From the NCBI RefSeq assembly GCF_000597725.1, contig NZ_JFBL01000003.1, positions 62,001 to 126,000 on the forward strand: a DNA stretch of 64,000 bases, given 5' to 3'. Shown one piece after another: positions 14,664 to 62,703 of this stretch. The position numbers were made by a program, and so were the translations under genes. This DNA is from Sulfurospirillum arcachonense DSM 9755. GTDB lineage: Bacteria > Campylobacterota > Campylobacteria > Campylobacterales > Sulfurospirillaceae. Each line of letters begins with the position of its first letter. The first letter of the stretch is position 1. The notes beneath the pieces are model-generated. The model was not told the DNA's origin. It ran no database searches and was given only the letters and a program-made list of their open reading frames with translations.

Positions 14664-15272
14664 TTGATTAGTAAATTAAATGATATAAAGCGTAGAGTTT
14701 TTTTACTCTGCGCTTTATTTTTAAGTATAAGTGCAGTTGCTAATGCCTCATTTGTTGTAGTTAATGATGAGATTATTAGCCAAAAAGTTACTCAAAAAAT
14801 CAATACTATGGGAAGTGAGCTTTTTACAAACACGGGTATTAGTGTATATGTAGCTCTTCCTCAAAGTTTAGAAAAAAAGAGTATTTTTGAGTATGAAAAA
14901 GAGATTTCTTTAAAGCTAAGAAAACCTTATGTTTTATTGACTATTGCTAAAAATGAAGAGCAATTAGACATTTTATATACTCAAGGATTAGAAAAAAGAT
15001 TTGATAAAGAAGCAGTTCTTTCGCCATTTCCTTGGAGTGGTACAATCTTACCAATCTTGACTCAAAAAAAAGAGAATGACCAATATAATGCAGCCACATT
15101 AAATGGTTATGCAGACATTGTAGAGCAAATTGCAAAATCTTATAATGTGAAATTGCAAAGTGCTATTGGAAATACAAATAAAAATATTTATCTATATCTT
15201 AAGATTATTATTTATGGATTTTTGTTAATTGTTATTGGCAAATATTTATATAAAAAAATGGGAAAAAGATGA
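14664..15272 (+). CDS. TPM-like exported protein with C-terminal membrane anchor
   Basis: A 202-residue protein. TTG at 14664 is favoured because it gives a signal sequence (KRRVFLLCALFLSISAVANAS) and lies 2 bases after the previous stop. The middle has the look of a TPM domain: INTMGSELFTNTGISVYVALP followed by PYVLLTIAKNEEQLDILYTQG. A membrane helix lies at about 172-192 with a basic tail. TPM proteins act in membrane-protein assembly, including photosystem II repair. Between oxidase genes and fixH, it may help assemble the cbb3 complex; this is inference. Confidence 0.6.
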   Translation: MISKLNDIKRRVFLLCALFLSISAVANASFVVVNDEIISQKVTQKINTMGSELFTNTGISVYVALPQSLEKKSIFEYEKEISLKLRKPYVLLTIAKNEEQLDILYTQGLEKRFDKEAVLSPFPWSGTILPILTQKKENDQYNAATLNGYADIVEQIAKSYNVKLQSAIGNTNKNIYLYLKIIIYGFLLIVIGKYLYKKMGKR

Positions 15273-24376: not shown

Positions 24377-24808
24377 ATGAAATTGACTAAATCAATGAAA
24401 TCTAACGAAGTACAACGCGATTGGATCGTTGTTGATGCTGCTGGTAAGAGATTCGGTAGAGTTCTTACAGAAGTTGCAACGTACTTAAGAGGAAAACATA
24501 AACCATGCTTTACTCCAAATGTTGATTGTGGTGACTTTGTTGTTATTATCAATGCAGAGAAAGTAGAGTTTAGTGGAAATAAATTAGATACGAAAGAATA
24601 TTACAGACACACTGGATATTTTGGTGGTGTTAGAACTGATAAACTAGCAGATCTTTTAGAAAACAACCCAGCTAAACTATATAGATTAGCTGTTCGTGGT
24701 ATGCTTCCTAAAACAAATCTTGCAAAAGATATGATTAAAAAGCTAAAAGTATATGCAGGTAGTGAACACCCTCATACTGCTCAAATTAGTCAGAGTGAAG
24801 GAAAATAA
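24377..24808 (+). CDS. rplM: 50S ribosomal protein L13
   Basis: A 143-residue L13 of the large ribosomal subunit. [50 protein letters not shown] and [13 protein letters not shown] are classic L13 sequence. It starts after AGAAGG and is followed 2 bases later by rpsI, the usual rplM-rpsI operon. The 65 bases after addA include a GTATACAAT that could serve as a -10 region. Confidence 0.98.
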
Positions 24809-24810
24809 AT

Positions 24811-25200
24811 ATGGCAAACGTATATGCAACTGGAAAAAGAAAAAGTGCAATTGCTAAAGTATGGGTAACTCCTGGTACTGGTAAAATTGTTGTTAATGGA
24901 CTTAGCCTTGACCAATGGTTAGGTGGTCACGAGACTATCAAGATGAAAGTTCGTCAACCATTAGTAGTTACAAAACAAGTTGAAAGTTTTGATATTAAAG
25001 CTTCAACTTTAGGTGGCGGATATTCAGCACAAGCAGAAGCACTAAGACATGGTATTTCAAAAGCATTAGCTTCTATGGAATCTGATTTTAGAGCTGAGTT
25101 AAAACCACTAGGTTTACTTACACGTGATTCAAGAAGTGTTGAGCGTAAGAAATTTGGTAGAAAAAAAGCAAGAAAGTCTCCTCAATTCTCAAAGCGTTAA
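24811..25200 (+). CDS. rpsI: 30S ribosomal protein S9
   Basis: A 129-residue S9 of the small subunit. [20 protein letters not shown] at the start, [21 protein letters not shown] in the middle and the basic tail [14 protein letters not shown], whose last residues reach the P-site tRNA, are all present. The start is 2 bases after the rplM stop. Confidence 0.98.
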
Positions 25201-27030: not shown

Positions 27031-27084
27031 TTTACTATTTGTTTATAAAAAATTAAATAAGTGTTTAAACAATGATTATATACT
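27031..27084 (+). promoter_or_regulatory. Promoter region of small RNA copy A
   Basis: The box TTTACTATTTGTTTATAA starts at 27031, GTTTA at 27063 and a -10-like TATACT at 27079-27084. The box begins 48 bases before the -10 and GTTTA begins 16 bases before it. Copies B and C show the same distances exactly. The start of transcription is predicted near 27091. Confidence 0.65.
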
Positions 27085-27090
27085 TCTTTT

Positions 27091-27177
27091 ACCAAGACAA
27101 AAACCTCCTTTTTGTAGATAGAACCGAAAAACTTTAATAATCAAGCATCCTAGTTGCCCGGCTAGGATGCTTTTTTT
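27091..27177 (+). ncRNA. Candidate small RNA, copy A, with CCTCC-loop hairpin and terminator
   Basis: An intergenic unit of about 87 bases between DUF523 and DUF364. Hairpin 1 pairs ACAAAAA (27097-27103) with TTTTTGT (27109-27115) around loop CCTCC; the 25 bases from 27097 to 27121 are identical in three copies. Hairpin 2 pairs AAGCATCCTAG (27143-27153) with CTAGGATGCTT (27162-27172) around TTGCCCGG and ends in seven T residues, an intrinsic terminator. The CCTCC loop matches the anti-Shine-Dalgarno core of 16S rRNA. No open frame of note is inside. I infer a trans-acting small RNA; targets are unknown. Confidence 0.75.
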
Positions 27178-27231
27178 ATGTCTATAAATAATTTCATTTT
27201 CACTTTCCAACAAAGCTAATAAAATACTATT

Positions 27232-27984
27232 TTAAATTTTAGAAATATAACAAGGATATGTAAAAATTTCATTAAGATTGTTGTGTAAAAGTGTTGAGTG
27301 ATTTATATTTTTAAGATACAAACTTGCTACATGCGTCAATCCACTATCTTTAAACCAAGAAGGATAAGTACCAGCTGAAAATCCAGTAATTACTTTGATA
27401 GGTACATTTTTGCTAAAATGTAAAATTGCATCGATAGTAGAGCCAAGAAGAGTCGCTCCAGTAATAATGAGAATATCTGCTTGAGAGATAGCTTCATATT
27501 CATAAATATCATTATAGATTTTATTTTCTACATCTGTATGTTGTCTACAAAAGACACTAATATTTTTTCTTTTTTCTTTGAGTGCTTTGACTACAGGTTG
27601 CAGGTGACCAATAAAAATAATTTTTGAATTCTCGTGGGAATTTTTTAAAATAAATTTTGTTAAATTATCTCGTAAATCTTCTTCTAATTTTAGTTTTTCT
27701 TTTGAAAGTAAATATTGTGATATTGCATTCATTGTGCTGAGTGAAAAAGCTCTTTTACCTGCGTCATATACATTACCTTGAATAAGTAAGTTTTTAAGAT
27801 CTCCTGGGCAAAATCTACCAATAGCTCCTTCTGTTTTGGGGGTAAGGCAGACACCTGTCGCTTCATTTAAACCATCGGTAATTTTTGTATATGTAAAGAG
27901 AGCACCCATACCAGATTCAACGAATTGCAGTGAGTTTTCTTCGATACAGCGTAAAGCATTTTCTTGTAGCTTATAAAAAAGCAT
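27232..27984 (-). CDS. DUF364 (Rossmann-like, putative heavy-metal chelation) protein
   Basis: A 250-residue soluble protein. The C-terminal half matches DUF364: IIFIGHLQPVVKALKEK, then ADILIITGATLLGSTIDAIL and IKVITGFSAGTYPSWFKDSG. The N-terminal part fits the DUF4213 domain often fused to it. Structures of the family suggested metal or small-ligand binding, but no reaction is proven. It is divergent from a Fec-type ABC transporter across 163 AT-rich bases, which supports a role in metal-complex handling. AGGAG precedes the ATG. Confidence 0.75.
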   Translation of the reverse strand: MLFYKLQENALRCIEENSLQFVESGMGALFTYTKITDGLNEATGVCLTPKTEGAIGRFCPGDLKNLLIQGNVYDAGKRAFSLSTMNAISQYLLSKEKLKLEEDLRDNLTKFILKNSHENSKIIFIGHLQPVVKALKEKRKNISVFCRQHTDVENKIYNDIYEYEAISQADILIITGATLLGSTIDAILHFSKNVPIKVITGFSAGTYPSWFKDSGLTHVASLYLKNINHSTLLHNNLNEIFTYPCYISKI

Positions 27985-28021
27985 TAAAATTCTCCTATTT
28001 CTTTTATAAATTAGATTTTAA

Positions 28022-28038
28022 AATATATCGCATATATT
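28022..28038. repeat. Inverted repeat in the DUF364 / ABC transporter divergent promoter region
   Basis: AATATAT and ATATATT flank CGC. It lies about 40 bases upstream of the DUF364 start and may be an operator, but the region is so AT-rich that chance is a real alternative. Confidence 0.3.
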
Positions 28039-28086
28039 ATTTTAAGTAGTATTTAATTTTTAAATGTTAGTATAATACGAAATTAA

Positions 28087-28113
28087 TATAATTATTATAT
28101 TTTGATAATTATA
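28087..28113. promoter_or_regulatory. 9-bp inverted repeat upstream of the Fec-type ABC operon
   Basis: TATAATTAT and ATAATTATA are separated by 9 bases, 35 bases before the ATG at 28148. Metal regulators of the Fur or NikR type bind AT-rich dyads of this general kind, so control by metal is plausible. The exact regulator cannot be named from sequence. Confidence 0.35.
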
Positions 28114-28147
28114 ACATATTTATAATATTAATTATAAGGGCTTTTTT

Positions 28148-29188
28148 ATGAAAAAAATATTGATTCTAATGAGTATTTTAGCATTATATGCATGGGCAAA
28201 ACCATATACGGATATGTTGGGAAGAGTAGTAGATATTAAGAAAAATCAAACTTTTGTATTTATTGGGCCAGGAGCTTTAAGACTAGGGGTATATCTTGGG
28301 CTTAAAAATCGAGTAATTGGAATTGAGAGAATTGAGCAAATGAAGCGTAAAATAAATATTCAATCACCATATCGTATGTATTTAGGAGAAAAGTTTACTC
28401 ATAGTCGTCCTCTTATTGGAAATGGTGGTCCTGGAAAGATGCCAAATTTAGAAGCACTTGTAAATGTTAATCCTGATGTAATTTTTACTTCATTTATTAA
28501 AAAAGATCAAATAGAAATTATTAGACAAAAAACTGGTATTCCAGTAGTCGCTTTAAGCTATGGTTCCTCTTATGGTGGTAAAGGAAATAAAAATTTAGAT
28601 GAGATTAAAAACTCTTTATACCTCATATCACAAATAGCTCATGTAGAAGAAAGAGCAAAAGAAATAATAGATTTTATAGAATTTCAAGAAAAAAAACTTT
28701 CTAAAATTAAACCTTCAAAAAAAAGTTTGTATGTAGGTGGTGTTGCTTATAAAGGTATACAACCTATTACAAGTACAGAGGTTGATTATCCTCCTTTTGT
28801 TCTTTTAGGGCAAAAAAATTGTGTTTTCGAAAACAGTACAATAAAAGGGCATCAGTTTATTGATTTTGAAGCACTATTGAAAGCAAATCCAGAAGTAATT
28901 TTTACAGATATGCAAAGCCATGATAAAATAACACAAGATTATAAAAAAAATAAACCAATGTATGAAACACTACAAGCATATAAAAACATGGATGTAAAGG
29001 AAGTTTTGGGATTTAATAATTATAGTACAAATGTAGAAAATCTTCTTGTTATTGCTTGGCAAATTGCTACATATTTAGGTGAGAGTATTGATATAAATAA
29101 GAAAGCTGAAGATATTTATGAAGTATTTTATCCAAAAAATGGAAAAGTACTTTTACATAAACTTGAGTATAATTTAGGAAATGTATGA
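28148..29188 (+). CDS. Fec/Btu-type periplasmic metal-complex binding protein
   Basis: A 346-residue exported protein with signal peptide KKILILMSILALYAWAK and then YTDMLGRVVDIKKN, the usual entry of Peripla_BP_2 proteins. VNPDVIFTSFIKKDQ and ANPEVIFTDMQSHD are the paired helix-strand motifs of the two lobes. Ligands of the family are iron-siderophore, heme, cobalamin or other metal chelates; I cannot choose. It heads a three-gene operon with 4-base overlaps to the permease and on to the ATPase. AAGGG precedes the ATG. Confidence 0.85.
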   Translation: MKKILILMSILALYAWAKPYTDMLGRVVDIKKNQTFVFIGPGALRLGVYLGLKNRVIGIERIEQMKRKINIQSPYRMYLGEKFTHSRPLIGNGGPGKMPNLEALVNVNPDVIFTSFIKKDQIEIIRQKTGIPVVALSYGSSYGGKGNKNLDEIKNSLYLISQIAHVEERAKEIIDFIEFQEKKLSKIKPSKKSLYVGGVAYKGIQPITSTEVDYPPFVLLGQKNCVFENSTIKGHQFIDFEALLKANPEVIFTDMQSHDKITQDYKKNKPMYETLQAYKNMDVKEVLGFNNYSTNVENLLVIAWQIATYLGESIDINKKAEDIYEVFYPKNGKVLLHKLEYNLGNV

Positions 29189-30228
29189 CTCTTTCTAGTG
29201 TATATAAAAGACGAAAAAAAAAGAGAGTAGTTGTTCTTTTAATACTCCTTATTATCCTTTTAATACTTTTGTACTTAAGTCTTATTAGTGGTTCATCTGG
29301 TATAGTTTGGAAAGATAGTACAAAACTTTTTTCTTTAAGCGAACAAGATAAAACTTTTCAAATAATCGTAAATTCAATTCGTTTACCTAGAGCATTAGCA
29401 GGAATAATGGTAGGAGCATTATTAGGGTTAAGTGGTGCAGTAATGCAAGGTATTTTGCAAAATCCGTTGGCTTCACCTTTTACGCTTGGGATTTCTCAAG
29501 GAGCAGGGTTTGGAGCTGCTATTGCTATTATTGTTTTACCAGAATATACTATAGGTAGTAGTTGTTTTGGTGAATTTTATATTGCTATAAGTGCATTTAC
29601 ATCTAGTATGTTATGTACTTTTTGTATTCTTTGGATGAGTTCCAAAGTTGGCATGAATCCAACTAGTATTATTTTAGCTGGTGTTGGATTAGGTTCACTA
29701 TTTCATTCAGGTACAATGTTTTTACAGTATTTTACTGATGAAATGAATGCAGCAGCTACACTTTTTTGGACATTTGGAGATTTGAGTAGGGCAAGAGAGT
29801 TTTCTCTTTATATTTTACTGATGGTTTTTATACCAGCAAGTATCTTTTTTCTAGTATCCCATTGGAAGTTTGATGCTTTGTGTTTTGGTGATGAGAGTGC
29901 CTTTAATAAAGGTGTTAACGTGAATAAATTTCGCATGGTTGCTTTGATTGTTGCATCTTTATGTGCAGCTGTAGGGGTGGCATTTTTTGGAATAATAGGT
30001 TTTATTGGGCTTATTGCCCCTCATATGGTTCGCATGATTATAGGCACAAGTCATAGTATTTTATTACCACTTTCAGCTATTTTTGGAGGAGTTTTACTTT
30101 TAGGAGCTGATTTATTAGCACGAACTTTTTTATATCCTATAGTTTTACCTGTTGGAATTTTAACCTCTTTTATAGGAGCCCCTTTATTGCTTTATTTATT
30201 AGTAACTCTTAAGAGAATAAAAGAATGA
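29185..30228 (+). CDS. FecCD-family ABC transporter permease
   Basis: A 347-residue inner-membrane permease with about 9-10 helices. RLPRALAGIMVGALLGLSGAVMQ, NPLASPFTLGISQGAGFGAA, FFGIIGFIGLIAPHMVR and GADLLAR are standard in FecCD/BtuC proteins; the loop that contacts the ATPase lies in the last two. It overlaps its neighbours by 4 bases on each side, so the three genes are co-translated. Confidence 0.93.
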   Translation: MTLSSVYKRRKKKRVVVLLILLIILLILLYLSLISGSSGIVWKDSTKLFSLSEQDKTFQIIVNSIRLPRALAGIMVGALLGLSGAVMQGILQNPLASPFTLGISQGAGFGAAIAIIVLPEYTIGSSCFGEFYIAISAFTSSMLCTFCILWMSSKVGMNPTSIILAGVGLGSLFHSGTMFLQYFTDEMNAAATLFWTFGDLSRAREFSLYILLMVFIPASIFFLVSHWKFDALCFGDESAFNKGVNVNKFRMVALIVASLCAAVGVAFFGIIGFIGLIAPHMVRMIIGTSHSILLPLSAIFGGVLLLGADLLARTFLYPIVLPVGILTSFIGAPLLLYLLVTLKRIKE

Positions 30229-30986
30229 GTTTAAATGTAAAAGATTTGCATTATACATTGGCAAAGCAAACACTGTTACAAGATATAAATTTTCAAGCCA
30301 AAAAAGGAGAAGTAGTAGGTATTATAGGTCCAAATGGAGCTGGAAAGAGTACTCTTTTAAAACATATAGCAGCTATTTTACCTATAAAAAAAGAACAAAT
30401 AATGCTTGATGGAAAAGACATTTCAAAATTAAAACCAAGAGAAATTTCACGACATATTGCATATCTTTCACAATTTGCTTCATTTCCTCAAATAAGTGTA
30501 CTTGAATCATTAGAACTTGGTAGACGATCTTATAGTGGAATGATGTTAAGCCAATTGGATAAAGAGATGATTTCTCAAAGTATAGAAGAGTTTGACTTGC
30601 ACAAACTTTTGCATAGAAGCATTGATACACTTAGTGGAGGTGAGCGACAAAAAGTTATGATAGCTAGTGCTATGCTACAAGAACCTGATGTGTTATTACT
30701 TGATGAACCTATTTCTCACCTTGATCCTAAAAATCAGCTTGAAATGCTTAGTGCAATCCATAAAGTAACATATGAAAAAAATTTAGTGACATTAGTAGTA
30801 CTGCATGATTTACAACATGCTATTCATTATTGTGACTCCTTATTAATGCTTAAACTTGGTGAAATTAAATATCATATAAAGACAGATATGTTAGAGGAAA
30901 AGATGTTAGAAGAACTTTTTGATATACAAACAAAATTGTACTATGTAAGTGGACATATCTTTGTTTATTATGGTCATCATCATTAG
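30225..30986 (+). CDS. Fec/Btu-type ABC transporter ATPase
   Basis: A 253-residue ATPase with Walker A GIIGPNGAGKSTLLK (near 33-47), Q-loop YLSQFASF, signature LSGGERQKVMIASA (near 138), Walker B PDVLLLDEPISHLDP and H-loop VVLHDLQHA. It powers the permease encoded upstream. The C-terminus has a short His-rich end (YYGHHH). Confidence 0.95.
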   Translation: MSLNVKDLHYTLAKQTLLQDINFQAKKGEVVGIIGPNGAGKSTLLKHIAAILPIKKEQIMLDGKDISKLKPREISRHIAYLSQFASFPQISVLESLELGRRSYSGMMLSQLDKEMISQSIEEFDLHKLLHRSIDTLSGGERQKVMIASAMLQEPDVLLLDEPISHLDPKNQLEMLSAIHKVTYEKNLVTLVVLHDLQHAIHYCDSLLMLKLGEIKYHIKTDMLEEKMLEELFDIQTKLYYVSGHIFVYYGHHH

Positions 30987-31038: not shown

Positions 31039-32538
31039 ATGAAAATATTTATATTATGTATGTTTACATGTAGTACTGTTTTTTCTTCTGTATTGCATAT
31101 GTCAATTTCTGCAAGTCCTAGTAGGATTAATCCTATAATTTCTACAGACTCTATTGGTTCACAAATATCAAGGTGGGTATTTAATGGACTTATCTCTTAT
31201 GATAAAAATGCAAAAATAAAAATGGAGTTAGCAAAAAGTTATAAATTTTTAGATGATACTACGTTAGAATTTGAATTAAGGGATGATGTCTTATGGAGTG
31301 ATGGGAAGCCTTTTACTGCAAAAGATGTTTTATTTACCTATGAGACAATTATCTCCCCAAAGATATTTACTCCATATGCAGCAAGTTTTACACACATAAA
31401 ATCAGTAAAAATAATCAATGATTACAAAGTGGTTATTAAATATAAATATCCCTATTTTCAAGCACTTAATATTTGGATGATGGAGATATTACCAATGCAT
31501 ATTTTGCAAAATGAAAAAGATTTAATGACTTCAAAATTTAATCAATCTCCTATTGGTACAGGACCCTATACATTGGAAAAGTTTTCTATTTCTAGTGATA
31601 TAGTAATACAATCAAATCCAAAATATTTTGTACATAAACCTAATATTGATAAGATGATATTTCATTTTTTACCTGATAGATCAGCTCAGTTTTTAATGCT
31701 CAAATCAAAAAAATTAGATGTTGGCAGTTTATCACCTTTGCAATTTGAACGTCAAATAGATGATGACTTTAAAAAGAACTTTAATATTTATGAAGATATA
31801 GCACATGTTTACTCTTATGTTGGCATGAATTTAAAAAATAAAAAGTTTAAAGATAAAAGAGTAAGAGAAGCTCTGAGTTATGCAATCAATAGACAAGAGT
31901 TAGTTGATATACTCTATTTTGGTCATGGCAGAGTTTGTAATGGCCCTTTTCTACCAGGAACAGGTGCGTATAACAAAGATGTAAAAGCACCCAAACAAGA
32001 TATAAATAGAGCCAAAAAACTTTTAAAAGAATTAGGCTACGATGATAAAAATCCTTTTGAATTTACACTAACAACAAATACTGGTTCTTCTGGAGCTTAT
32101 GCGGCTCAAATTTTGCAATATCAGTTAAAAAAAGCAGGGATTATAATGCATCTTAGAGTGATGGAATGGCAAGCATTTTTAAATACTGTAGTTAAGCCAA
32201 GAAAATTTGAAGCTGTTCTTATGGCATGGTCTTTAGGCCTTAAAGCAAATGCTTATAGTATTTGGCATAGTGAATCAAGTAAAAAAGGTGGGTTTAATTA
32301 TATAGGATATAAAAATGAGAAAGTAGATTTTCTCATAAAAAAGGCAGAAAAAATTATCGACCAAGATAAATTTGATGCAATTTATCGAGATATGTATAAA
32401 GAAATTACAGATGATATTCCTTATCTGTTTTTAGTAATTCCTAATTCAATTACAGTAGTCAACAAAAAGATTAAACCAGTAAGTCCATCTATCATAGGTG
32501 TGATGCATAACTTGATAGATTGGGTTAAGAACCCTTAA
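31039..32538 (+). CDS. Family 5 extracellular solute-binding protein (peptide/nickel type), no permease nearby
   Basis: A 499-residue exported protein with a signal peptide (KIFILCMFTCSTVFSS) and the SBP_bac_5 fold: LEFELRDDVLWSDGKPFTAK DV near 75-93 is the family signature, and NRQELVDILYFGHG and GPYTLEKF are also typical. Ligands range from oligopeptides to nickel chelates. No DppBCDF-like genes follow, so it either works with a distant transporter or supports the Fec-type operon 52 bases upstream. The stop is followed by an OmpA gene whose leader has a perfect CATTTTAT/ATAAAATG dyad (32541-32557). Confidence 0.85.
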   Translation: MKIFILCMFTCSTVFSSVLHMSISASPSRINPIISTDSIGSQISRWVFNGLISYDKNAKIKMELAKSYKFLDDTTLEFELRDDVLWSDGKPFTAKDVLFTYETIISPKIFTPYAASFTHIKSVKIINDYKVVIKYKYPYFQALNIWMMEILPMHILQNEKDLMTSKFNQSPIGTGPYTLEKFSISSDIVIQSNPKYFVHKPNIDKMIFHFLPDRSAQFLMLKSKKLDVGSLSPLQFERQIDDDFKKNFNIYEDIAHVYSYVGMNLKNKKFKDKRVREALSYAINRQELVDILYFGHGRVCNGPFLPGTGAYNKDVKAPKQDINRAKKLLKELGYDDKNPFEFTLTTNTGSSGAYAAQILQYQLKKAGIIMHLRVMEWQAFLNTVVKPRKFEAVLMAWSLGLKANAYSIWHSESSKKGGFNYIGYKNEKVDFLIKKAEKIIDQDKFDAIYRDMYKEITDDIPYLFLVIPNSITVVNKKIKPVSPSIIGVMHNLIDWVKNP

Positions 32539-32586: not shown

Positions 32587-33177
32587 ATGAAAAATATATT
32601 AATCTTATTGGTTCTATTTTTGTCTTTTTCTTTTGCAGGTCAAAATAGTATTTTTAAAACAGTTGAAGGTGCAACAAACTCTGGAATAACAGAAGGATCA
32701 ATGATACCTGATTCAAAAAGACCAGATGGTTTTATTATAAAACATATAAAAAATGATTTTGACAATGATGGCATTCAAGATCAATATGATGAGTGTTTAG
32801 ATACCCCTGAGGGCAAAGTAGTTACAAGTGATGGTTGTATTAAGCTTATCCGTTTAAATGTAAGATTTGACTTTGATAAGTCAAATATCAAAAATGAATA
32901 TAAAGATGAAATTGAAGAAGCTGTAAAATTTTTAAAACAAAATAAAACGTTAACTACTACTATAGAAGGACATACAGATTCAGTTGGAACTGAAAAATAT
33001 AATTATGTACTTTCTCAGTTAAGAGCAAAAAAAGTAGCAATTGCTTTAGGTAATGAGGGTATTGATAATAAAAGAATTGTTACAAAAGGTTATGGTGAAA
33101 CGAAACCAGTTGCTAATAATGATAGTGAAGAAGGAAGAACCCAAAATAGACGAGTTGACATTAGTTTTAACAAATAA
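32587..33177 (+). CDS. OmpA-family outer-membrane protein, short form
   Basis: A 196-residue protein with signal peptide KNILILLVLFLSFSFAGQ, a calcium-binding thrombospondin type-3-like linker (DFDNDGIQDQYDECLDTPEG, near 57-76) and a C-terminal OmpA peptidoglycan-binding domain (RFDFDKSNIKNEY, IEGHTDSVGTEKYN, KGYGETKPVANN, RTQNRRVDI). There is no beta-barrel, so it is probably periplasmic or loosely tied to the outer membrane. ACCCTTA (32531) and TAAGGGT (32576), the latter holding the ribosome binding site, can pair. It is followed 11 bases on by a longer OmpA gene. Confidence 0.9.
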   Translation: MKNILILLVLFLSFSFAGQNSIFKTVEGATNSGITEGSMIPDSKRPDGFIIKHIKNDFDNDGIQDQYDECLDTPEGKVVTSDGCIKLIRLNVRFDFDKSNIKNEYKDEIEEAVKFLKQNKTLTTTIEGHTDSVGTEKYNYVLSQLRAKKVAIALGNEGIDNKRIVTKGYGETKPVANNDSEEGRTQNRRVDISFNK

Positions 33178-33188
33178 AAAGGAAAACT

Positions 33189-34220
33189 ATGAAAAAGATA
33201 TTATTATGTTTAGTAGTTGTTACTACTTTGGCATTTGCAGGACAAGGTGATTATAAATCAGAAATGACGGCTACTGTGGGTGGCGTTAAAGCAGAAGGTA
33301 ATTTAGATTTAGAAAATGCTTTAAATTTAGGTCTTAGATACGGTGTTTATGTAGAAGACACATTTTTTGATATGTTTGAAGTTGGTTTTGAGAGATCAAG
33401 TGATGTTGATTATGACAATTCATCAGAAGATACAGATATTAATAGGTTTTTTGTAAACCTTGTAAAAGAGTATGATGTAGCAAAAGATACAGCTTTATAT
33501 GCATTAGTTGGACTTGGTTATGAAAACTATAGAAATCCTATGTTTGATAACGATGATGATGGATTTTTTCAATATGGTATAGGTGTCAAACAGTGGATAA
33601 CAGATCAATTTGCATTAAAAGCAGAAGTAAGACATGGAATAAACTTTGATGGAGATAATAACCTATTTTATAACTTAGGTTTTGTAATCCCTTTTGGTAA
33701 AAAAGTTAAAGATGAGATGCCAATCAAATCTGAGCCAGTTGTAGAGCAAAAATCTGAACCAGTTGTTATAGAAGAACCAAAAAAAGTTATTTCTGTAGAT
33801 GATGATAAAGATGGTGTTTTAAATGAAAATGATAAATGTCCAACAACAAAAATGGGGAAAATAGTAGATAAAGATGGCTGTGTGAAAATAGTTCGTTTAC
33901 ATGTAAATTTTGCTTATGACAAAGTAGAAATTTCATCTTCATATGTTATAAAGATACAAGAAGTTGCAGATTTTATGAATGAAAATGAAGATTATACAGT
34001 AGTTTTAGAAGGTCATACTGATTCAAAAGGAACAGAGCAATATAATCAAAAATTATCAGAAAAAAGAGCAATGGCTGTTTCAAAAGTACTGGTTGATTTA
34101 GGTATTGCAAAAGAGAGAATATCTACAGTTGGTTATGGGGAATCAAAACCAATTGCAACTAATGAAACAGAGGATGGAAGAGCTAAAAATAGAAGAGTAG
34201 ATGCTAGTTATAATAAATAA
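33189..34220 (+). CDS. OmpA-family porin-like protein (CadF-like)
   Basis: A 343-residue protein with a signal peptide, an N-terminal eight-strand barrel-like region (about 20-175, alternating FFVNLVKEYDVAKDTALYAL and similar), a spacer with the repeat KSEPVVEQKSEPVVIEEPKK (about 178-197), a type-3 thrombospondin-like segment and a C-terminal OmpA domain (VVLEGHTDSKGTEQYN, VGYGESKPIATN, RAKNRRVDAS). In C. jejuni the OmpA gene at this place is the fibronectin-binding adhesin CadF, from memory. Adhesion by this protein is not shown by the sequence; a structural porin role is at least as likely. Confidence 0.88.
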   Translation: MKKILLCLVVVTTLAFAGQGDYKSEMTATVGGVKAEGNLDLENALNLGLRYGVYVEDTFFDMFEVGFERSSDVDYDNSSEDTDINRFFVNLVKEYDVAKDTALYALVGLGYENYRNPMFDNDDDGFFQYGIGVKQWITDQFALKAEVRHGINFDGDNNLFYNLGFVIPFGKKVKDEMPIKSEPVVEQKSEPVVIEEPKKVISVDDDKDGVLNENDKCPTTKMGKIVDKDGCVKIVRLHVNFAYDKVEISSSYVIKIQEVADFMNENEDYTVVLEGHTDSKGTEQYNQKLSEKRAMAVSKVLVDLGIAKERISTVGYGESKPIATNETEDGRAKNRRVDASYNK

Positions 34221-57922: not shown

Positions 57923-57976
57923 TTTACTATTTATTTAATAAAAGTTAATAGAGTGTTTAGACTATAGGTATATAAT
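57923..57976 (+). promoter_or_regulatory. Promoter region of small RNA copy B
   Basis: TTTACTATTTATTTAATAAAA begins at 57923 (first 15 bases conserved), GTTTA at 57955, and a consensus -10 TATAAT at 57971-57976. Distances of 48 and 16 bases to the -10 equal those of copies A and C. The predicted start is near 57983. Confidence 0.7.
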
Positions 57977-57982
57977 TTTATT

Positions 57983-58057
57983 ACCAAGACAAAAACCTCC
58001 TTTTTGTAGATAGTATGCAAAAGCGTTCGAGATGCCCACCTCGGACGCTTTTTTTTT
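57983..58057 (+). ncRNA. Candidate small RNA, copy B, with CCTCC-loop hairpin and terminator
   Basis: About 75 bases in the divergent gap between nudC and the YgjP-like gene. Hairpin 1 (ACAAAAA 57989-57995, loop CCTCC, TTTTTGT 58001-58007) is identical to the other copies. Hairpin 2 pairs AAGCGTTCGAG (58021-58031) with CTCGGACGCTT (58040-58050), one G-T wobble, around ATGCCCAC and ends in nine T residues. The linker between hairpins is shorter than in copies A and C. Best promoter of the three. Confidence 0.78.
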
Positions 58058-58128
58058 GCCTATTAAGGATATACATATAAAACTTCTTTTTTCATGCTTA
58101 TCAAATAAAGCATAGTATATAATTCCTT

Positions 58129-59105: not shown

Positions 59106-59159
59106 TTTACTATTTGTTTATAATAAGTTAATACAACGTTTAAGTTAAAGATATATACT
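59106..59159 (+). promoter_or_regulatory. Promoter region of small RNA copy C
   Basis: TTTACTATTTGTTTATAA begins at 59106, right after the stop of the deoxyribosyltransferase-like gene; GTTTA at 59138 and TATACT at 59154-59159 keep the 48- and 16-base spacing of the other two copies. Confidence 0.65.
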
Positions 59160-59165
59160 TTTATT

Positions 59166-59247
59166 AACCAAACAAAACAAAAACCTCCTTTTTGTAGATA
59201 GAACTTAATATAACGTTCAGAGTTGCCCGCTCTGAACGTTTTTTTTT
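59166..59247 (+). ncRNA. Candidate small RNA, copy C, with CCTCC-loop hairpin and terminator
   Basis: About 82 bases. Hairpin 1 (ACAAAAA 59177-59183, CCTCC, TTTTTGT 59189-59195) is identical to copies A and B. Hairpin 2 pairs AACGTTCAGAG (59212-59222) with CTCTGAACGTT (59230-59240) around TTGCCCG, a perfect 11-bp stem of different sequence from the other copies, and ends in nine T residues. Confidence 0.77.
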
Positions 59248-59369
59248 GCCAAAATTTTTGAACTTTAGATTATATCTGTCCTCCCTAAAACATTCCTCTA
59301 TGTACTAGCACACTTTTTACCCTCTTTGAAATGCTAAAATCAAGATAATATAATTTAAAAGGAGCATGT

Positions 59370-60914: not shown

Positions 60915-62042
60915 ATGTTTAATAAAGAAGGTGTTCCTTTTTTTATTATTATGTTTCCTTTTTTATGTTTAATCTTTTTCTCTTTTTTTACAGCTTCTTA
61001 TTATTTAAAACTTTCAGAAGAAGTAAGTACTTCTACTCAAATGATTTACAAACAAAAAAATCTTAGTCAAGAAAATATCAACCAACGTATAGAACAAATT
61101 CACATACAAAAAAAAGAACAATTTATTAATTATCTTTGGATTATAACTCTGAGTGTTTTAGTTTTTATGCTTCTTTTTTCTTTAGTGATGAATAATATTG
61201 TTCATGATATTATAAAACGTTATAAAGAAAAAGTTCATGCAAAGGAAGATTCTTTACGAGAGTTAAATCGAACTTTGACTTTTCAAGTGGCAGAAGGTAT
61301 TAAAAAAGGAAAAGAAAAAGATAAAACTATTTTAAGAGAGTCTCGGTTAGCTATACTAGGTTCTATGCTTTCTATGATTGCTCACCAATGGAGACAACCT
61401 TTAAGTGAACTCTCTGGTATATTAATGCAAATCGAGATAGCTACGAGATTTAAAAAATTGACCAATGAAAAACTTTTTAGTTCACTCGAACGCAGTAATG
61501 AGCGAATAGAGTATATGTCTAATACTATTGATGATTTTAGGCATTTTTATAAACCTGATAAAAAGAAAGAGTTGTTTTGGCTTGGAGAAGCATGTCAAAA
61601 AGCACTCAACCTGATAAATGCAGCATTAATAAATGCAGATATCAGAGTAGTTACTCGTATAAAAAAAGATGAACAATTTATGGGTTATCCTTCAGAGTTT
61701 GCACAAGCCATTTTAAATATTTTGAGTAATGCTAAAGATGTTTTAGTAGATAGAAAGATTGAAAATCCAACTATTACACTTTCATTAAATACTACAGATA
61801 CTCACATTGTTGTTGTCATTCAAGATAATGGTGGTGGTATTGAAGAAACAAGTATGGACAATATTTTTGATCCATATTTTAGTACTAAAGATGCGTCAAA
61901 AGGTACTGGTCTTGGACTGTATATTGCTCAAATTATTATAGAAAAAAATTTAGGTGCTAAGTTGCTAGTATCTAATGGTGATTTTGGAGCTGTATTTACA
62001 ATAGTGTTTGAAAGGATAGAAGATGAATGCAATTTTTCTTGA
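60915..62042 (+). CDS. Membrane sensor histidine kinase
   Basis: A 375-residue kinase with two helices (about 6-25 and 76-98) around a 50-residue periplasmic loop, a coiled coil, the H-box [19 protein letters not shown] (His near 157), [20 protein letters not shown] and [10 protein letters not shown]. The H-box matches that of the kinase at 9029, so the two are paralogues with different sensors. The start is unclear: the only AAGGA is 22 bases before ATG 60915, an 8-codon frame (60896-60922) overlaps that ATG, and an ATC at 60900 in frame would give [10 protein letters not shown]. It overlaps the regulator gene by 20 bases. Confidence 0.85.
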
Positions 62043-62703
62043 AGAGTTACGTACTATTCCTATCTTATGTGTTGAGGATGAAGATGGAATTCGTCAAGTT
62101 ATTGTAGAAACTTTGAAATATTATTTTGAAAATGTGTATGAAGCAAGAGATGGTGATGAAGCGTATGATAAATATTTAGAACATAAACCTAAAATTATTT
62201 TATCAGACATTCAAATGAAAAATTGTGATGGAGTAGAGTTTGTTAGCAAGATTAGAAAACATGATTTACATACCAATATCATAATGCTAACAGCTTATTC
62301 AAATGAAGAGTATTTAATGGATTTAATTAATTTAAATATAAATCACTATATTTTAAAGCCATTAAATTTAAAAAAACTAGACGAGGCATTGTTAAAGTAT
62401 TTAAATAAAGAGCATAAGCCAATAACTTTGTTAAATGATTTTGTTTTAGATTTAGAAAAACGAGAATTAATCTATAAAAACATACAAACAATAACTTTAA
62501 GAAAAAAAGAAAAAGAGTTTTTAAAACTATTATATGAAAAAGATAAAAGTGTATTAACTTATGAGCAAATAGAGAATGCATTATGGCTAGATAGAGAAAT
62601 GACAGCATATGCTTTAAAGTCTTTTATAAAAGAACTTAGAGCTAAATTACCAGTAAATATCATTAAAAATATCCCACAAGAAGGCTATATTTTAAAGAAA
62701 TAG
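62023..62703 (+). CDS. OmpR-type response regulator
   Basis: A 226-residue regulator with receiver motifs ILCVEDEDGIRQV, the phospho-acceptor in IILSDIQMKNCDG, MLTAYS and YILKPLN, followed by a winged helix (LRKKEKEFLKLLYEKDKSV, YALKSFIKELRAKLP, PQEGYILK). It resembles the regulator at 10257 in length and in the TxxA(I/L)+SFIK pattern. It is encoded 20 bases inside the kinase gene, in another frame, so expression is coupled. Confidence 0.9.
   Translation: MNAIFLEELRTIPILCVEDEDGIRQVIVETLKYYFENVYEARDGDEAYDKYLEHKPKIILSDIQMKNCDGVEFVSKIRKHDLHTNIIMLTAYSNEEYLMDLINLNINHYILKPLNLKKLDEALLKYLNKEHKPITLLNDFVLDLEKRELIYKNIQTITLRKKEKEFLKLLYEKDKSVLTYEQIENALWLDREMTAYALKSFIKELRAKLPVNIIKNIPQEGYILKK

Follow-up and report, generated by a model that had tools for sequence, protein, structure and literature searches.

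The terminator hairpin at 27143-27172 is best read as the 3' end of a small RNA of approximately 75-90 nt that has its own promoter and two siblings nearby, and that may be switched on by a regulator to block translation under envelope stress; we put the probability of this reading at roughly two in three. The window, that is the whole 64-kb stretch analysed (positions 62001-126000 of the contig, in a 2.66-Mb genome), holds every one of the exactly three copies found in this genome. As far as sequence comparison goes, these copies appear to be siblings within one family of small regulatory RNAs that has apparently not been described before, and the comparisons demonstrate a gene family with a private 11-bp-repeat promoter, a predicted single-stranded CCUCCUUUU stretch, a covarying stem and a fixed GCCC loop. 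No description of these RNAs in Sulfurospirillum was found in the literature searched.

Three sibling RNA genes in the window

In all three copies an AT-rich upstream block precedes the -10 box, which is followed by ACCAAGACAAAAACCTCCTTTTTGTAGATAG, a linker that varies and the terminator (Table 1). The start of copy 1 is placed approximately 7 nt after the -10 box by inference, and its end at the T run. The three terminator hairpins of the preliminary description were all present, each followed by a T run, and all three copies fold computationally into the hairpins as drawn (z from -4.2 to -5.2). The statement that their stems are unrelated was too strong for copies 1 and 2, which are identical at 8/11 stem positions; each of the three differences between them is compensated or wobbled on the opposite side. 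A scan of the 64-kb window with Rfam 15 gave zero matches above the gathering score for any family.

Table 1. Positions in the window of the three RNA genes, their parts and the neighbours of copy 1
Feature	Position	Strand	Details
Promoter, copy 1	27031..27084	+	TTWA repeats at 27031, 27042, 27053 and 27064 (11-bp spacing); -10 TATACT 27079-27084; pattern search
sRNA, copy 1	27091..27179	+	~89 nt; covariance model match 27089-27178, 94.9 bits; fold z -4.17
Anti-Shine-Dalgarno seed, copy 1	27104..27113	+	CCTCCTTTTT; ACCTCCTTT equals the 16S rRNA 3' end of this genome
Terminator hairpin, copy 1	27143..27172	+	AAGCATCCTAG-TTGCCCGG-CTAGGATGCTT, then T run; loop TTGCCCGG 27154-27161; GCCC 27156-27159
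Promoter, copy 2	57923..57976	+	Four 11-bp repeats; -10 TATAAT 57971-57976
sRNA, copy 2	57983..58058	+	Seed 57996-58005; model match 83.3 bits; fold z -4.68
Terminator hairpin, copy 2	58021..58050	+	AAGCGTTCGAG-ATGCCCAC-CTCGGACGCTT, one G-U pair; loop ATGCCCAC
Promoter, copy 3	59106..59159	+	Four 11-bp repeats; -10 TATACT 59154-59159
sRNA, copy 3	59166..59248	+	Seed 59184-59193; model match 76.2 bits; fold z -5.17
Terminator hairpin, copy 3	59212..59240	+	AACGTTCAGAG-TTGCCCG-CTCTGAACGTT; loop TTGCCCG
rplM and rpsI	24377..25200	+	Left-hand neighbours, conserved in Campylobacter too; tblastn synteny
DUF364 gene	27232..27984	-	Convergent to copy 1
SBP_bac_5 solute-binding protein	31039..32538	+	Pfam PF00496; orthologue directly after the sRNA in ~27 relatives
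Two OmpA-family genes	32587..34220	+	Right-hand end of the conserved locus; Campylobacter has a CadF-type gene there

Covariation of the stem and constancy of the loop

Relatives were gathered through the exact upstream block CAAAAACCTCCTTTTTG alone, the loop playing no part in their selection. Among the 29 distinct RNAs chosen by this CCTCC block, 10/10 terminator pairs had changed on both sides, with 83 double-changed cells observed compared with 24.0±5.9 after shuffling and a covariation score of 0.472 compared with 0.191. As aligned, 96% of cells were paired, against ≤53% when the two sides were slid. The three copies alone, offered earlier as evidence of covariation, were thin, and it is this wider set that confirms it; compensatory changes at all ten pairs bear out the claim of selection on the RNA stem structure. 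The loop likewise proved conserved as described, GCCC being present in all three copies and in 28/29 relatives.

A covariance model (R2) built from the 29 RNAs and run on 399 genomes of the order found the family in 41/44 Sulfurospirillaceae genomes, with 1-9 copies each, and gave no significant match in other families. Weak matches in those families (E > 0.001) look like chance, except the Campylobacteraceae ones, and 20-mer matches in Clostridium, Aquificota, Lactiplantibacillus, Lachnospiraceae, TA06 and one viral contig, which lacked the rest of the unit, were rejected as chance. The model yielded 124 distinct members from about 40 Sulfurospirillaceae genomes. GCCC occurs in the terminator loop of 121 of these 124 (L173 included), a count that is biased upward because R2 itself favours GCCC, whereas the 28/29 count is unaffected; the exceptions are L028 (ACCC), L129 (GCC) and L115 (TTTCC). 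The base preceding GCCC is T in 118 of the 120 GCCC-anchored members (0.12 bits), and the stem columns of the same members carry approximately 0.5-1.5 bits.

In a diverged subfamily (L155:12055-12146, L163:1503-1594 and L179:1553-1644) the CCTCC seed is replaced by the hairpin ACAAAACAAAAACGCCAATTTGTTTTGT, and the terminator loop is TTGCCCC. CCTCC is lost altogether in these three RNAs (CGCCAA) and GCCC is retained; here the loop outlives the seed.

A counterpart upstream of cadF in Campylobacter

Many genomes of a second family (f11) contain the 15-mer AACCTCCTTTTTGTA, usually as a single occurrence, and it is nearly absent from the remainder of the order. In f11 it forms part of a compact unit, preceded by a -10 box and followed at short distance by a terminator, and the gene order in genera g28 and g37 of that family is RplM-RpsI-(RNA)-OmpA. 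The position of a CadF-like OmpA gene and the match to the published cadF start of Campylobacter lari indicate that f11 is probably Campylobacteraceae. That start was mapped by primer extension in 5'-TTTTATAATTTCAAAG-3' (PMC2751783), and TTTTATAATTTCAAAG is, letter for letter, the -10 region of several f11 loci, which suggests that the published cadF transcript may start at the sRNA promoter. In C. lari the promoter upstream of cadF is active and its transcripts read through into cadF (PMC2751783).

The cadF upstream region of C. lari and its relatives resembles the Sulfurospirillaceae loci in its syntenic rplM-rpsI-(RNA)-ompA/cadF arrangement, the 15-nt AACCTCCTTTTTGTA, the -10 box and the upstream TTTA spacing, but differs from them in being single copy and in its drifting terminator loop, and it is not described as an sRNA in the literature searched. 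CJnc170, CJnc230, CJnc20 and CJnc30 could not be matched to the rpsI-cadF locus in the literature outside supplementary tables. The Campylobacter rpsI-cadF intergenic regions L363-L370 likely hold a short RNA with the same seed around position 1500. Campylobacter terminator loops drift even within one genus (ACCCAA, CCCA, TTT, ATTAAA and GCTAA); since the f11 search required CCTCC, fixation of the seed there is partly by construction, whereas the loop drift is unaffected. Loops drifting in other genomes had been named beforehand as evidence against the reading of GCCC as a seed, and such drift is what the Campylobacter counterparts display, although the loop is fixed within Sulfurospirillaceae. 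The fixed GCCC loop is therefore special to Sulfurospirillaceae.

Role of the GCCC loop

The further claim that GCCC acts as a second seed was not borne out, as GGGC was not enriched at translation starts (31/1147 genes, compared with 51 inside genes) and no target stood out. Duplex prediction gave no clear candidate, its ranks reflecting only strong Shine-Dalgarno sites. GGGC near strong Shine-Dalgarno sites was rejected as a conserved target, most matches in this genome (IMPDH, a cupin, a ferredoxin-type subunit and others) being a dispersed intergenic repeat, GGGCTTTGCTC..AAAAAGGAG. All searched genomes of genus g4 have the sRNA but not this repeat, whereas some other families have the repeat but not the sRNA. 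This repeat (..CTTTAGTnnnAGGAATTTTnnCTGGGCTTTGCTCAGnAAAAAGGAG) is sometimes tandem (~80-bp) and is positioned to supply the Shine-Dalgarno site of the next gene; it was seen in the window's own genome at L209:5600-5690, L213:2330-2430, L214:7540-7640, L239 and L242, with arrays in genomes G004, G007 and G042. A second seed is nonetheless plausible.

Alternatively, the loop could be a protein-binding or stability element, or a favoured terminator apex, and not a base-pairing seed, as would fit the lack of GGGC enrichment at start sites, the position of GCCC within a terminator, and the ability of UU-GCCC-GG to close to a tetraloop in several members. We consider this somewhat unlikely. A sample of 464 kb of this genome held 50 strong terminator-like sites, of which only the three sRNA copies had GCCC loops, and in 400 kb of a related genome the count was 0/25, so that a general terminator preference is not seen; the varied loops tolerated by the Campylobacter counterparts also argue against this alternative. 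Moreover, members differ in the size of the loop and in the pairs that close it (TTGCCCGG, ATGCCCAC, CTGCCCA and TTCGCCCAA) yet retain GCCC, which argues against a non-seed role.

A private promoter and its probable regulator

The promoter of the family consists of four TTWA repeats at -48, -37, -26 and -15 from the -10 hexamer, with an exact 11-bp period in 112 distinct promoters. With the promoter profile the repeats of the three copies scored 33-40 bits (39.9 bits for copy 1), whereas the highest score of any site outside the family was 14 bits across 464 kb of the same genome. Campylobacter sigma-70 promoters generally show a weak periodic AT signal where the -35 box would be (PMC3847290); the sRNA promoter is far more specific than this signal. 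In six whole genomes, 16/17 matches to the four-repeat pattern were these sRNAs, and the sole other match lay before an operon of htrA, a response regulator and an ArsS-family kinase, the gene order of C. jejuni htrA-cprRS. In 17/17 assessable Sulfurospirillaceae htrA promoters, two repeats stood at distances from the -10 box that match those in the sRNA promoters; these htrA promoters are orthologous and hence not 17 independent events, and the figure for genes in general was 14/1142. Only 2/10 Campylobacter htrA promoters fitted the pattern. In the window's own genome the regulator gene follows htrA, and an ArsS-family kinase accompanies the htrA-adjacent regulator where the kinase gene was read. 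According to a review (PMC7887314), CprRS regulates the cell envelope and its response regulator is essential. Taken together, these sites make the two-component system beside htrA the probable reader of the sRNA promoters.

Several further sites were noted. The htrA upstream regions L403-L420 carry a TTTAC repeat pair with 11-bp spacing, 15 nt before the -10 box, typically as ATTTAC-N5-GTTTAC. Genome G015 has three sRNA copies, yet HtrA was not matched there at E <= 1e-60, which counts against the proposed link. Outside the sRNAs, the highest full-profile score in the genome sample belonged to a promoter on the minus strand of L217 (~14851-14970), which is among the 14/1142; the gene behind it presumably encodes a PEB4-type (PEB4/SurA-like) periplasmic folding factor, as recognised by eye from the start of its product. 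A histidine kinase and OmpR-type response regulator pair lies at 60915-62703, two genes downstream of copy 3; this response regulator (62023-62703) was rejected as a linked partner, being no recurring neighbour of the sRNA family.

A different reader, the HP1043/CosR orthologue (consensus TTTAAG-N5-TTTAAG), would be a candidate in place of the CprR-like regulator, as HP1043/CosR also reads 11-bp repeats, and the sRNA promoters share this period and the promoter-overlapping position with HP1043 sites (PMC5253667, PMC8345958). We regard this as unlikely, because the G of TTTAAG, which is important for HP1043 binding, is unconserved in the sRNA repeats, and the site common to the htrA-regulator operons points to the adjacent regulator.

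The anti-Shine-Dalgarno seed

The 5' part of the RNA carries CCUCCUUUU, which matches the 16S rRNA 3' tail; ACCUCCUUU is identical to the tail of this genome, which reads ATCACCTCCTTTCTA. The seed CCTCCTTTT is kept in 113/124 members, and the predicted median chance of being unpaired over the 124 members is 0.97 for CCTCC and 1.00 for GCCC. The CCTCC element thus stands as the seed-like anti-Shine-Dalgarno sequence it had been taken for, predicted to be single-stranded and equal to the 16S tail. The 5' hairpin ACAAAAA/CCTCC/TTTTTGT was rejected as a conserved structure, as it is lost in genus g2 and some members of g4 with CCTCCTTTT kept; because this AU hairpin is lost in other genera, the conserved element is a linear single strand. 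A conserved unpaired stretch complementary to the Shine-Dalgarno sequence, here with the tail match ACCTCCTTT, is the mark of the anti-Shine-Dalgarno class of trans-acting sRNAs.

Neighbouring genes and the possibility of a leader

Gene order in the window is RecB-RplM-RpsI-PurT-DUF523-(copy 1)-..-SBP5-OmpA-OmpA. A gene for DUF364 (putative heavy-metal chelation) and a FecBDE-type ABC transporter (27232-30986) separate copy 1 from the SBP5 gene. The short RNA could be simply the terminated product of a leader attenuator, the element being a 5' leader whose transcription stops early, ahead of the gene that follows. SBP_bac_5 begins approximately 10-280 nt past the terminator in ~27 loci, and the cadF mRNA of C. 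lari starts at this promoter, so read-through does occur (PMC2751783). Set against this are the convergent DUF364 gene that copy 1 faces, the differing neighbours of many copies, the constancy of seed and loop where the downstream gene changes, and the lack of any alternative antiterminator pairing in the folds of the three copies; as a general account, a leader attenuator thus seems decidedly unlikely. At the ancestral locus, where SBP5 or cadF follow closely, a leader or attenuator role is for that reason a serious rival or addition to the sRNA function. That recent duplication or gene conversion, and not selection, keeps the loops alike is highly improbable, since, although copies within one genome are paralogues, GCCC and CCTCC are constant against a background of differing stems, linkers and flanks, with 55 distinct 8-nt stem bases among the 124 RNAs; these counts already suggest that old paralogues have changed their stems and kept their loops.

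Comparison with known small RNAs

The csRNAs of Streptococcus are several similar short sRNAs with an anti-Shine-Dalgarno stretch unpaired between stem-loops and a rho-independent terminator, and their promoters carry 11-bp direct repeats, TTTAAG-N5-TTTAAG, approximately 10 nt before the -10 box (PMC3091779). The present RNAs resemble these members of the CiaRH regulon in their several copies, the predicted unpaired anti-Shine-Dalgarno stretch and the 11-bp repeats, the four TTWA repeats having the same period just upstream of the -10 box. They differ in belonging to another phylum, in having four repeats and in the fixed GCCC terminator loop, and the csRNA family RF02379 scored 20.3 bits (E 1.7), below its gathering score of 57 bits. 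CiaRH also controls htrA.

LhrC1-5 of Listeria monocytogenes are multicopy, LisRK-dependent and induced by envelope stress, and they contact targets through one loop, an unpaired segment and the loop of the terminator (PMC4132741). By analogy, our RNAs may share with LhrC a multicopy organization, a putative response-regulator promoter and loops as contacts. However, LhrC repeats one motif, UCCC, at three sites (loop A, the single strand and the terminator loop), whereas two different motifs, CCUCC and GCCC, are found here, and no sequence kinship was seen.

RepG of Helicobacter pylori has a C/U-rich terminator loop that pairs with a homopolymeric G-repeat, its gene adjoins hp1043, and its homologues are reported only in related gastric Helicobacter (PMC8295292). 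The earlier comparison with RepG holds as an analogy only, in that both come from Campylobacterota and have a C-rich terminator loop, used for pairing in RepG. In contrast to the loop of RepG, the present one is a short fixed UGCCC(G/A), and no homology was found by model R2, which gave no significant match outside Sulfurospirillaceae in 399 genomes of the order. By analogy, the best reading is that the family would function like the csRNAs and LhrC and not like RepG; by the tests run it is a member of none of them.

Proposed mechanism and significance

We propose that an OmpR-type response regulator, most likely the CprR-like one beside htrA, switches the copies on under envelope stress. CCUCCUUUU would then pair with A-rich Shine-Dalgarno sites (AAAAGGAGG) and block ribosome binding, and the GCCC loop may, in Sulfurospirillaceae only, provide a further contact that either discriminates among targets or hastens initial pairing. 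RNAs of this class are not expected to have Hfq as a partner, so that its task would fall to stable stem-loops and C-rich loops; Hfq is absent in C. jejuni (PMC3847290). At the Campylobacter rpsI-ompA locus, terminator read-through would also yield the cadF mRNA leader.

A wider evolutionary account can be offered tentatively. The ancestor of the Campylobacterales may have had an envelope-stress sRNA that mimicked the 16S tail and answered to the htrA two-component system. In Sulfurospirillaceae this RNA would have been amplified into a multicopy family and gained the fixed GCCC loop as a second recognition element on an otherwise free terminator, while its Campylobacter counterpart doubles as the cadF leader; the circuit of regulator, htrA and anti-Shine-Dalgarno sRNAs under 11-bp repeats would in that case have arisen independently in this lineage and in streptococci.

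In Campylobacterota of the C. jejuni type, Hfq is absent and sRNAs are reported to be largely species-restricted (PMC3656092, PMC3847290). The present family spans two bacterial families at a syntenic locus, with a seed equal to the 16S tail. It provides a natural experiment, in which one loop is fixed in Sulfurospirillaceae and free in Campylobacteraceae, and it offers a testable regulator.
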